In this document: positions 1 to 63,766 of the stretch, in pieces
How the letters are laid out: the number at the start of each line of letters is the position of its first letter
Numbering within the stretch: position 1 is the stretch's first letter
NCBI GenBank assembly: GCA_947627445.1
Contig: CANQWA010000009.1
Span: forward strand, 1-64,000
DNA length: 64,000 nucleotides
From: an uncultured Ruminococcus sp.
Lineage (GTDB): Bacteria > Bacillota > Clostridia > Oscillospirales > Ruminococcaceae
Reading direction: 5' to 3'
Position numbers and translations under genes: made by a program
The notes under the pieces: generated by a model
Database searches by the model: none
Seen by the model: the letters and a program-made list of their open reading frames with translations, nothing else
Told to the model about the DNA's origin: nothing

Positions 1-480
1 TACCGGATGGTGTGACAAGTATTGGCTATATGGCATTTTCTGGCTGTACAAGTCTGACAGAGATCACCATACCGGATGGTGTGACAAGTATTGGCTATAT
101 GGCATTTTCTGGCTGTACAAGTCTGACAGAGATCACCATACCGGATAGTGTGACAAGTATTGGCGAGGTTGCATTTGATGGCTGCACAAGTCTGACAGAG
201 ATCACCATTCCGGATGGTGTCACATATATTAACTGGGGTGCATTTGAAGATTGCACAAGTCTGACAGAGATCACCATTCCGGATGGTGTGACAAGTATTG
301 ACGGCTGGGTATTTTCTGGCTGCACAAGTCTGACAGAGATCAACATTCCGGATGGTGTGACAAGTATTGGCGGCTGGGTATTTTCTGGCTGTACAAGTCT
401 GACAAAGGTCACCATACCGGATAGTGTGACAAGTATTGGCGAGGGTGCATTTGAAGGCTGCACAAGTCTGACAAAAATCA
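1..480 (+). repeat. 69-bp tandem repeats encoding LRR units
   Basis: Each LRR is encoded by a 69-bp unit. Bases 1-69 and 70-138 are identical, and later units differ mainly in the codons after ATTGGC. This DNA-level identity implies recent unit duplication or homogenisation, so copy number may vary between strains. Confidence 0.9.
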
Positions 481-869
481 CCATTCTGAATTCGGCATGT
501 GAGATCGGTGATAACGAGACCACCATTCCAGAGACGGCAGTCATTTATGGCTATACCAATTCTACCGCACAGGATTACGCTGCTGCATACGACCGTGAAA
601 TGATTTTTCTTGACAATGCCCCTGTGACAGTTTCTACCGGCGACTACGATAATGACGGCGAAATTACGATGAAAGATGCCTACCATGTCCTGGTGGCATC
701 CAGTCGGGTTTCCATGGGCATGGGACACGGACTGACAGACGAACAGTTTGCGATCTCGGATATTGACGGCGACGGCACCGTCACCATGAGCGATGCGTAC
801 TGGATTTTGCTGTACAGTTCCTATGTTTCTCTGGGACAAGAAATTACCTGGGAAGAACTGCTGAGCTGA
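3..869 (+). CDS. BspA-type leucine-rich-repeat protein with C-terminal type I dockerin (5' truncated)
   Basis: The frame is open to the left edge, so the true start lies outside the window; the GTG used by the ORF track is internal. About seven LRR_5 units of 23 residues (ITIPDGVTSIG...GCTSLTE pattern) fill the first 160 visible residues. They are followed by a short non-repeat stretch and a dockerin with two calcium-loop motifs, DYDNDGEITMKD and DIDGDGTVTMSD, ending in WEELLS. LRR_5 proteins are typically secreted surface proteins. The dockerin predicts docking to a cohesin of a cellulosome-like scaffold, though no cohesin gene is in the window. The ligand of the LRR part is unknown. Confidence 0.88.
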   Translation, partial: PDGVTSIGYMAFSGCTSLTEITIPDGVTSIGYMAFSGCTSLTEITIPDSVTSIGEVAFDGCTSLTEITIPDGVTYINWGAFEDCTSLTEITIPDGVTSIDGWVFSGCTSLTEINIPDGVTSIGGWVFSGCTSLTKVTIPDSVTSIGEGAFEGCTSLTKITILNSACEIGDNETTIPETAVIYGYTNSTAQDYAAAYDREMIFLDNAPVTVSTGDYDNDGEITMKDAYHVLVASSRVSMGMGHGLTDEQFAISDIDGDGTVTMSDAYWILLYSSYVSLGQEITWEELLS

Positions 870-2529: not shown

Positions 2530-2574
2530 GGCAACACCACACAAAGCCGTCAGCATTCTTTGTGCGGTGTTGCC
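2530..2574. repeat. GCACAAAG-type palindromic hairpin, copy 1
   Basis: GGCAACACC(a)CACAAAG pairs with CTTTGTG(c)GGTGTTGCC, a stem of about 17 bp with an 11-nt loop. No U-tract follows. Related hairpins occur near 35188, 52770 and 61084. It lies between the divergent Nudix and pduL-like genes. Confidence 0.75.
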
Positions 2575-12788: not shown

Positions 12789-13054
12789 TTTGTGATGCGA
12801 TGCAATCCATTCGATAAGAGCCTGTCTGGTATCTGGAGATAATCGGATTTTGAAGCAGATTTTCGTCCTGACTATGAACGTCCGATGCAGGAATCCTGCA
12901 TGTATCTCAAGGAGGACGGGCTGAGTCAAAACAGAAAAATGCCGGAAAACGGCGATGGAAAGAACCGAAACAAGCTCTGAGAACCTGCCGGAAAAACAGG
13001 CGCATGTTCTTGTGCAGACAGGTTCTAAACGCATTTTAAGAAGGGTGAGAGAAA
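12789..13054 (+). other. Intergenic region before pilB
   Basis: 266 bases without a supported gene. Near its end AGAACCTGCC...GACAGGTTCT (12981-13026) forms an imperfect palindrome of the AGAACCTG family seen elsewhere. No promoter of good quality was found, so pilB may be read from the upstream promoter. Confidence 0.5.
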
Positions 13055-29559: not shown

Positions 29560-29790
29560 CCGGCAGGTTCAAACAATGCAGAGGGCTTTTTCCAGAATTT
29601 TTCTCACGCATGCTTTGTCAGCTCGGCATATATACTTCCCTTTATTGCCTTCGGGCAAAATACCGGCATCCTGCGTCAGTTTCCCTTGCCTTGCGTCAGC
29701 AAGGCTGCGGCAAACTTCCTTGTCTGACAAAATTTTGCCTCGAAATCTATGGCGCACTTTGCCATAGCGGAAAGTATCACACATCGCCGA
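29560..29790. repeat. Diverged copy of the MITE-like element (tentative)
   Basis: GACAAAATTTTGCCTCGAAATCTATGGC at about 29727 aligns with GTCAAAATGTTACTCGAAAATCCATGGTC of the 49582 element at about 70 percent identity. A TTTTTCTCACGCA block precedes it in similar order. Without alignment tools this is only suggestive; otherwise the gap holds nothing recognised. Confidence 0.35.
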
Positions 29791-35183: not shown

Positions 35184-35223
35184 GGGGCAACACCGCACAA
35201 TCTTTGTGCGGTGTTGGTTGCCC
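35184..35223. repeat. GCACAAAG-type palindromic hairpin, copy 2
   Basis: CAACACCGCACAA-TCT-TTGTGCGGTGTTG is a perfect 13-bp stem (35188-35217) between obg and mrnC, without a T-run on either strand. Confidence 0.75.
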
Positions 35224-35266: not shown

Positions 35267-36752
<1,486 letters not shown>

Positions 36753-42308: not shown

Positions 42309-42426
42309 AAAAAGACCATCTGCAACCCGAACTTTTCTTTGCTGGAATCTGCCGGAAAGACAGATGCATTTTCTGGCAAAGACAAGTCTTTATCACACCC
42401 CATGTACGAAAGAGAGGGAGCAACCT

Positions 42427-49581: not shown

Positions 49582-49750
49582 TTAGAACTGGTTCTCATCG
49601 GATATTGCACCTGTCTTTTCGGCAAATTTTGCCGATTGCTGCGTGAAAAAAGCGCATCATACGGCAAGGTTGCTTTCGCTTTTTCGCCTTGCCCTCGTCA
49701 AAATGTTACTCGAAAATCCATGGTCAAATCCGATGAGAACAAGTTCTTAA
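49582..49750. mobile_element. MITE-like element with 22-bp terminal inverted repeats, copy 1
   Basis: The left end TTAGAACTGGTTCTCATCGGAT is inverted at the right end as ATCCGATGAGAACAAGTTCTTAA. The interior has CGGCAAAATTTGCCG and GGCAAGG...CCTTGCC dyads and no open frame with a start site. A related truncated copy lies at 63600. The right end supplies the stop codon of the CAP-dockerin gene. No transposase is present, so it would be non-autonomous. Confidence 0.7.
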
Positions 49751-52444: not shown

Positions 52445-52683
52445 CTGTTATGCGCCCTTTCTGTTATATACGGAATTCTCAGGTAAAACGCAGCGGTCTG
52501 ACGGAAAATTTTCCGCAGTTCTGCGTTAACGTTCTTGCCATACGTCGGTATTTCTGCGAATGCTTTTTGCATCTGCGAAAGATATTCTCGTCATTGATTT
52601 TGCGTTTTGCATGAAAGTTCCGTATCGCATGGAATCTGTTATCCGGACTGTTGGAAAATTGGATGATTGTCCGGACGTAACCA
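52445..52683 (-). ncRNA. Long structured 5' leader of the acyl-CoA synthetase gene
   Basis: About 240 nt separate the promoter from the start. Candidate structures are GTCCGGAC...GTCCGGAT near the 5' end, ATGC-AAAAA-GCAT, and AACGCAG...CTGCGTTTT enclosing CGGAAAATTTTCCG close to the gene. No known riboswitch was recognised. Confidence 0.35.
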
Positions 52684-52688
52684 TTCAC

Positions 52689-52717
52689 ATTATACTATAT
52701 TTTGGAGTGGTTGTCAA
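52689..52717 (-). promoter_or_regulatory. Promoter of the acyl-CoA synthetase gene
   Basis: On the minus strand TTGACA and TATAAT with 17-bp spacing. The -35 box lies inside the first copy of the 38-bp tandem duplication. Confidence 0.8.
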
Positions 52718-52772
52718 GGAATTTTAAAGACAAAATATTTTGGAGTGGTTGTCAAGGAATTTTAAAGACAAA
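52697..52772. repeat. Exact 38-bp tandem duplication
   Basis: ATATTTTGGAGTGGTTGTCA... is present twice without mismatch (52697-52734, 52735-52772). Each copy carries the TTGACA -35 hexamer on the minus strand, but only the first has a TATAAT at proper distance. Confidence 0.95.
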
Positions 52773-52809
52773 CCCGCACAAAGAGCGCCTAACGGCTTTG
52801 TACGGGTTT
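52770..52809. repeat. GCACAAAG-type palindromic hairpin, copy 3
   Basis: AAACCCG(c)ACAAAG pairs with CTTTGT(a)CGGGTTT; loop of 12 nt; followed by TGCCTTAGAG, not a U-tract. An isolated GAGAACAAGTTCT lies just after it at 52824-52836. Confidence 0.7.
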
Positions 52810-52965
52810 GCCTTAGAGATAATGAGAACAAGTTCTGATTTCTGAAAATGGCATTCCGTGGAAACAGCTATGTTGGGATTTGACTTTTTTTTGAAGATGT
52901 GTTATAATAAGAATACCTATGGAAATGAGAAAAAATTCCCCGAACGAATATGGAGGTGCGCTGGC

Positions 52966-54836: not shown

Positions 54837-55134
54837 TTTTTTTTGACCGGAAATTGTCGAATTTTGTGGATTTTAGGGCGTGTTGACACAATCTGAAATG
54901 TTCGGATGGTAAGCAGACGATTTGAAAGGTATTTGAAAATCAGAACCTGTCACCACCAGAAAATGCATCCACCTTTCCGGCAGATTCCGGCGAGAACTTC
55001 GCCGAAACCCGCACAAAGCCATATCCGAGCAATCCGGGTATGGCTTTTGCATATCTGATTACCCAAATCCATTTTCCATATGGTGCTGAATGCCGCCGCC
55101 CCCAGAAGACACCCGCAAATATGAAATTCGCCCC
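54837..55134. other. Gene-free stretch upstream of the glmS promoter
   Basis: Holds an AGAACCTGTCACCACCAGAAA repeat at 54943, a TTTCCGGCAGATTCC motif at 54970, and a hairpin AAAGCCATA...TATGGCTTTT (55014-55050) preceded by AACCCGCAC, which is related to the GCACAAAG hairpin family. No gene seen. Confidence 0.6.
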
Positions 55135-57155: not shown

Positions 57156-57202
57156 AGAATCTGCCGGAAAGACGTGCGCCGCTTCTTGTGATAACAGATT
57201 CT
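57156..57202. repeat. Short palindromic repeat AGAATCTG...CAGATTCT
   Basis: 8-bp inverted ends flank CCGGAAAGACGTGC. A similar copy lies at 60285-60331. Confidence 0.6.
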
Positions 57203-57227
57203 CAAAAACCAAAAAAGAGGAAGTATC

Positions 57228-60262: not shown

Positions 60263-60284
60263 CTGTGGAAGAGGAAAAAAGCGC

Positions 60285-60331
60285 AGAATCTGTCTCCACA
60301 AAAAGATACAGACATCTTTCCGGCAGATTCT
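60285..60331. repeat. Short palindromic repeat AGAATCTG...CAGATTCT, copy 2
   Basis: 8-bp inverted ends enclose CATCTTTCCGG, the complement-related core of the 57156 copy. The right end touches the stop codon of the acidic Cys-rich gene. Confidence 0.6.
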
Positions 60332-61083: not shown

Positions 61084-61116
61084 GGCAAACTCGCACAATC
61101 TTTGTGCGGGTTTGCC
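61084..61116 (+). repeat. GCACAAAG-type palindromic hairpin, copy 4, at the transcript 5' end
   Basis: GGCAAAC(t)CGCACAA-TCT-TTGTGCG(g)GTTTGCC, a stem of about 15 bp placed at the predicted +1 of the CobW-family mRNA. Confidence 0.75.
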
Positions 61117-63599: not shown

Positions 63600-63718
63600 T
63601 TGACGGGGGCAAGGCGAAAAAGCGAAAACAACCTGCTGTATGGTGCGCTTTTTCCACGCAACAATCGGCAAAATTTGCCGAAAAGACAGGTGCAATATCC
63701 GATGAGAACAAGTTCTTA
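63600..63718. mobile_element. MITE-like element, copy 2 (truncated at one end)
   Basis: TTGACGGGGGCAAGGCGAAA through ATCCGATGAGAACAAGTTCTTA aligns in inverted orientation with the 49582 element, differing at a few positions. The first ~45 bases of the full element are missing. It begins 12 bases after the CobW-DUF1980 stop. Confidence 0.7.
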
Positions 63719-63766
63719 GTGTCAACATGCTCGAATACCGGAACATTCTGCGCACCATAGAGATCC

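Follow-up and report, generated by a model that had tools for sequence, protein, structure and literature searches.

Short hairpins in the window are very probably deletion derivatives of a transposable element

In our view it is very likely that the short hairpins dispersed over the window, i.e., the complete stretch of 64,000 nucleotides from an uncultured Ruminococcus sp. analyzed here, are deletion derivatives of a non-autonomous transposon (MITE) mobilized in trans, that the core of this element is shared with other MITE families, and that one of its folded strands is under selection. Four hairpins had been described in an earlier reading of the letters alone (sequence-only reading), and direct reading located them within a few bases of the positions given there. 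The terminal sequence said to be common to all four and to one single arm was found in each of them. A fifth related sequence does exist at position 55008; it is an arm without partner and not a hairpin. The following features were assigned:

2530..2574, + strand: GGCAA-TIR MITE, 46-type short form, 45 bp; left TIR fused with the right-end loop CCGTCAG...
35186..35222, - strand: 33-type short form, 37 bp; extra 4-bp GTTG duplication in the right arm (direct reading)
52767..52812, - strand: 46-type short form, 46 bp, CAAACCC/GGGTTTG subfamily
61084..61116, - strand: 33-type short form, 33 bp; target duplication TAAA/TAAA at the flanks
55008..55018, + strand: single degenerate arm (end of ...AACCCGCACAAAG), no partner arm

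A target duplication is kept in two of the four hairpins, at 61084 and at 35186 (CTGG/CTGG at the flanks); the copies at 2530 and 52767 show no clean 4-bp duplication. All four have retained the ends alone, without the folded core described below. With 6 occurrences in the window versus 2.95 expected, the 8-mer by itself shows hardly any enrichment. A 38-bp unit (ATATTTTGGAGTGGTTGTCAAGGAATTTTAAAGACAAA) is present in two perfect tandem copies at window positions 52697-52772; this repeat extends into the left arm of the hairpin at 52767.

For the analysis of the element, sequence stretches around the genomic matches were used as material. With up to three mismatches allowed, the 17-nt arm occurred 261 times (138 + 123) in the 2.58-Mb draft genome, compared to five occurrences (3 + 2) of the reversed pattern that served as control, and up to 272 + 276 arms were counted in another genome of the genus. 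Named organisms carrying the arm were mostly Ruminococcus (R. callidus, R. flavefaciens, and many MAGs). Arms were paired at preferred spacings of 33, 46, 119, and 172 bp. The full-length element of 172 bp, which is too short for a transposase gene, has a 17-nt TIR at both ends, with the terminal repeats reading GGCAA(C/T)ACC-GCACAAAG.

Identical 4-mers were present at both flanks of 89 out of 158 two-armed elements (shuffles: mean 17, maximum 25), and duplications of 2, 3, or 6-9 bp showed no enrichment in this set. In the source genome, the 4-bp signal held separately for the 33-bp, the 46-bp, and the full forms. Since the flanking 4-mers vary between copies (TTAA, TTTA, TAAA, TCAA, TATC, CCTG, and others), they are target duplications rather than part of the element. 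An empty site was also found: a 172-bp copy with TTTA on either side lies within a second MITE, and a sister copy of the latter on another contig of the same MAG contains a single TTTA, the join showing 98% identity.

L125:4792-4963: MITE nested in another core-bearing MITE; the sister copy without insert is L193:199-360

With TIRs, a target duplication of fixed length (4 bp), and a short, non-coding, multicopy sequence, the 172-bp element is a non-autonomous transposon (MITE). TIR, 4-bp target duplication, and empty site identify the window hairpins as transposon termini, an origin that the sequence-only reading had not foreseen.

REP-like hairpins moved by a Y1 transposase of the RAYT/IS200-IS605 type, which acts on single-stranded hairpins, would resemble these elements in outline, as both the strand-specific fold and the GCAG tetranucleotide adjoining the hairpin recall REP/IS605 substrates. 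Y1 transposition does not create matched target duplications, however, and the variable duplications matched on both sides (e.g., TCAA/TCAA, TATC/TATC, CCTG/CCTG) indicate a staggered double-strand cut instead of insertion without duplication. We therefore give a Y1-type origin almost no credence.

The 46-bp consensus consists of the first 17 and the last 29 nt of the 172-mer and the 33-bp consensus of its first 26 and last 7 nt; in the 119-bp form only the apex is lost. Each of the three short forms corresponds to the full element with its middle removed. The breakpoints of the 46-bp and 33-bp forms fall in direct repeats of 5-7 bp (CAAAG; TGTGCGG), and both forms are themselves flanked by target duplications. 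Judged from these junctions, the 46-bp and 33-bp hairpins are end-only internal-deletion remnants of the Ruminococcus MITE, and slippage between the short direct repeats might have generated them.

Search for the mobilizing transposase and occurrence in other hosts

The search for an autonomous partner yielded host genes only, both for ORFs located between TIR pairs 0.3-3 kb apart and for recurring ORFs adjoining single TIRs, where no transposase was encountered. None of the DDE transposases found in the genus by matches to PF01609, PF13586, and PF13751 was associated with the element's TIR, although a partner from another transposase family or in repeats collapsed at contig ends may have escaped detection, and a plasmid collection searched with the element gave no match. 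As no transposase with matching ends was found, we infer mobilization in trans: a DDE-type transposase supplied from elsewhere would recognize the ends and cut with a 4-bp stagger.

Matches to supposed phages proved to be unannotated fecal contigs. Since their relatives share the element alone, no empty site could be derived from them. The contigs L354-L357 (MT835572, MT836531, MT835885, MT835489), deposited as fecal bacteriophage contigs, carry elements and may be either bacterial contigs or Ruminococcus phages. Perfect GGCAAYACCGCACAAAG arms were also seen in MAGs labeled as distant taxa, namely L141 (Alistipes), L215 (Euryarchaeota), and L206 (Clostridium), which is likely due to mis-binning.

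Genomic context of the elements

The elements are mostly intergenic, with divergent, convergent, or tandem neighbors, and their strand showed no significant bias relative to the genes (37 same versus 53 opposite). In the window, the 2530..2574 hairpin sits between divergent NUDIX and PduL-like genes, and the 61084 hairpin precedes a CobW-domain gene by about 33 bp. In agreement with the sequence-only reading, the sequence 3′ of each of the four window hairpins contains no U-tract; rho-independent terminators were ruled out on this basis, and nothing points to termination.

The intergenic position of most copies, the strong folding, and the copy close to the CobW-domain gene would fit mRNA-stabilizing or attenuating RNA elements that were fixed at useful sites near genes. 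This explanation is very unlikely: the copies occur in all gene arrangements without orientation bias, target duplications and the empty site are signs of transposition, and U-tracts are missing. Given every gene orientation and the lack of strand bias, a cis-acting RNA role for host genes is improbable in general.

Covariation and strand-specific folding of the full-length element

The arms had been proposed to change together between copies, CAACACC pairing with GGTGTTG and CAAACCC with GGGTTTG. In the source genome, this was borne out for the 46-bp forms, where both arms were identical at the variable positions in 20 of 31 copies (shuffles: mean 10.2, maximum 18). The 33-bp forms, by comparison, remained within chance (11 of 26; shuffles: mean 7.2, maximum 13). 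The two arm types, CAACACC and CAAACCC, represent two variants of the terminal repeat.

The strongest covariation lies inside the full-length form. The common fold of the 61 full elements is a single rod bearing a side hairpin, and RNAalifold calculated an energy of -106.6 for the strand called canonical versus -84.5 for the other strand, with a large covariance term. To account for phylogeny, we wrote our own variant of the R-scape test, based on a FastTree tree and on alignments simulated so that the substitutions per branch were preserved. With one reconstruction and 50 simulations, 7 of the 61 structure pairs showed significant covariation against this tree-based null, compared to none of 14,135 other column pairs, and structure pairs also took the top five places among all column pairs of the alignment. 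Covariation among full-length copies thus exceeds what phylogeny accounts for, contrary to the outcome that would have refuted the sequence-only reading. It was also detected in the apical core, for which shuffle and slide controls were run. Near the apex there is a conserved internal loop, GCAG/CAAGG, and the stem-loop also has features resembling tandem G-A mismatches.

The motif strand had the lower minimum free energy in 58 of the 61 full elements. When the count was confined to pairs that the predictions for both strands had in common, Watson-Crick pairs turned into G-U (about 90 events) more often than into A-C (about 56; p = 0.006), and did so on one strand only. This excess stems in part from a small number of positions where nearly all copies, or the ancestral element, have G-U; the corresponding base changes in unpaired columns, which served as control, numbered 74 and 81.

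The sequence-only reading had left the choice between selection on the folded form and palindromic replication. The latter corresponds to the assumption that the elements are ordinary palindromic MITEs in which template switching or hairpin-mediated correction at the DNA level copies one arm onto the other, without any selection on a folded strand, and that the core common to several families goes back to a shared ancestor followed by exchange of ends. Long palindromes undergo such quasipalindrome correction, many of the apparent double changes map to a single branch, and the strand difference appears with DNA energy parameters as well. Correction of this kind would, however, erase the internal loop GCAG/CAAGG, which is conserved, and it should be strand-neutral, yet G-U exceeds A-C on one strand. 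In addition, most double changes affect one pair by itself: 54 runs comprised a single pair and 7 comprised two. We regard this explanation as rather unlikely, although it deserves more weight than the two alternatives discussed above. Because of the G-U over A-C asymmetry and the conserved unpaired nucleotides, a folded single strand is favored over strand-symmetric correction.

The alignment thus points to selection acting on one folded strand of the full-length element. This strand, either as transcribed RNA or as single-stranded DNA during replication or transposition, would be recognized by some factor, and the selection would serve the elements' own life cycle rather than the cis-regulation of neighboring host genes.

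A folded core shared by MITE families with unrelated ends

When the apical hairpin (GCAG, stem, loop, stem, CAAGG) was searched for, it turned up in repeats with other ends as well. A covariance model (R1) was built from 62 positions of 43 sequences, 33 or 34 of which belong to the GGCAA family and the rest, about ten, to other repeats, so that matches to these non-GGCAA training copies are not independent. In the source genome, R1 gave 55 matches at E ≤ 1. The best 30 of these 55 comprised 10 located between two GGCAA ends, 4 adjoining one such end, and 16 scored as "other", although the latter include L365 and L372, which start at a contig end and were read at a wrong offset, L365 being a degenerate GGCAA copy. 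Three core-bearing repeats lie in the window, the last of them about 190 bp from the 52767 hairpin:

29666..29727, - strand: apical core in a different repeat without GGCAA TIR; R1 43.6 bits, E 2.9e-8 in the window
12868..12930, + strand: apical core in a repeat beside a AGAACCTG...CAGGTTCT repeat; R1 36.0 bits, copy in the training set
52515..52576, - strand: apical core in another palindromic repeat with weak outer stem; R1 32.4 bits, copy in the training set

The outer ends of the non-GGCAA families were read by eye. One core-bearing family has the ends GGGCGTGTTGACACTAA with TA at the flanks, and its apical stem CGGGC/GCCCG replaces CATAC/GTATG. The core also occurs in a family with the ends TATTGCTCC, in repeats ending CCTCTATTGC, and in others; further ends in relatives are GGTCGCATCTAAAAACC, GAGCCTGTTCAATATC, AGAACCTGTCCACATAG, and TACTAATCTCTGATCA. 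One further member is inserted in a transposase gene:

L273:1167-1327: core-bearing 161-bp MITE, ends GAGCTTGTG, TTA/TTA flanks, interrupting a DDE transposase gene (PF01609) in genome G003

When the interrupted frame was joined without the 161-bp insert, it aligned to the insert-free homologue of genome G001 (L272) with about 80% identity and with frameshifts. As the target duplications differ between the core-bearing families, different transposases are presumably involved.

In a survey of 60 genomes, R1 found the core in 14 of the 35 further genomes from the genus (9 of 15) and the family (5 of 20), mostly with several copies, among them genomes in which GGCAA arms or perfect GGCAA hairpins are scarce or absent. 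At the order level, a single match was obtained in 1 of 24 genomes, and this match has GGCAA-like ends. For 26 of 28 non-GGCAA elements, the motif strand had the more stable fold of the two strands, with RNA as well as DNA parameters, so that folding does not separate RNA from single-stranded DNA. The cross-family alignment was too divergent for a covariance model of the whole rod.

These results suggest that evolution preserves the folded core as such across elements with unrelated ends. We put forward, tentatively and at somewhat less than even odds, that a superfamily of mini-transposons in Ruminococcaceae has as its conserved unit a strand-specific core of about 100 nt with the conserved apical loop GCAG/CAAGG, that this core has been joined to different ends and hence moved by different transposases (with 4-bp duplications for one family and TTA or TA for the rest), and that a trans-acting factor for the folded RNA or single-stranded DNA, rather than the transposase alone, conserves it.

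Comparison with known systems

Bacterial MITEs such as RUP of Streptococcus and Correia/NEMIS of Neisseria are likewise small and non-coding, with TIRs, target duplications, many intergenic copies, and internal-deletion variants. Here, in contrast, families with unrelated ends and target duplications of different length share one strand-specific folded core. We know of no other case of this kind, and searches of an open-access literature collection yielded no description of these elements or of a core common to MITE families with unrelated ends. Compared by features rather than by sequence, ERIC/IRU elements of Enterobacteria are similar in being imperfect palindromes of about 100-200 bp, intergenic, foldable as RNA, and present in both orientations, whereas the elements described here have clear 4-bp target duplications and modular ends. 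REP/BIME with RAYT, IS200/IS605, and integron attC sites also have a strand-specific folded hairpin as functional unit; the present elements differ by TIRs and matched target duplications and show no Y1 or integron integrase signature. Covarying stems and conserved internal-loop nucleotides are typical of Rfam structured RNA families, but in the window all families stayed below their cut-offs, and for two full-length copies the matches did not rise above chance level.

MITEs are usually viewed as passive ends for the transposase of a parent element, with dispensable interiors. Here the interior is the part common to different genera and unrelated ends, and it has RNA-like covariation and conserved loops. 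If the proposal is correct, several transposition systems carry a folded nucleic acid that has a recognition partner of its own, which could then be sought with the help of the covariance model. At the minimum, a large part of the repetitive hairpins in Ruminococcus is accounted for, which calls for caution against reading them as regulatory RNAs.

Further repeats in the window

A second dispersed repeat (AGAACCTGCCGGAAAGAC...CAGGTTCT; families D8-D16) has eight sites in the window:

12980-13029
36694-36735
42344-42393
49583-49629
54941-54987
57156-57205
60284-60330
63670-63719

These repeats are probably short deletion forms of another core-bearing MITE, with the ends AGAACCTGTCC (compare L408). 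Finally, window positions 3-560 contain 69-bp tandem repeats coding for a leucine-rich-repeat protein of the BspA type that matches dockerin weakly.
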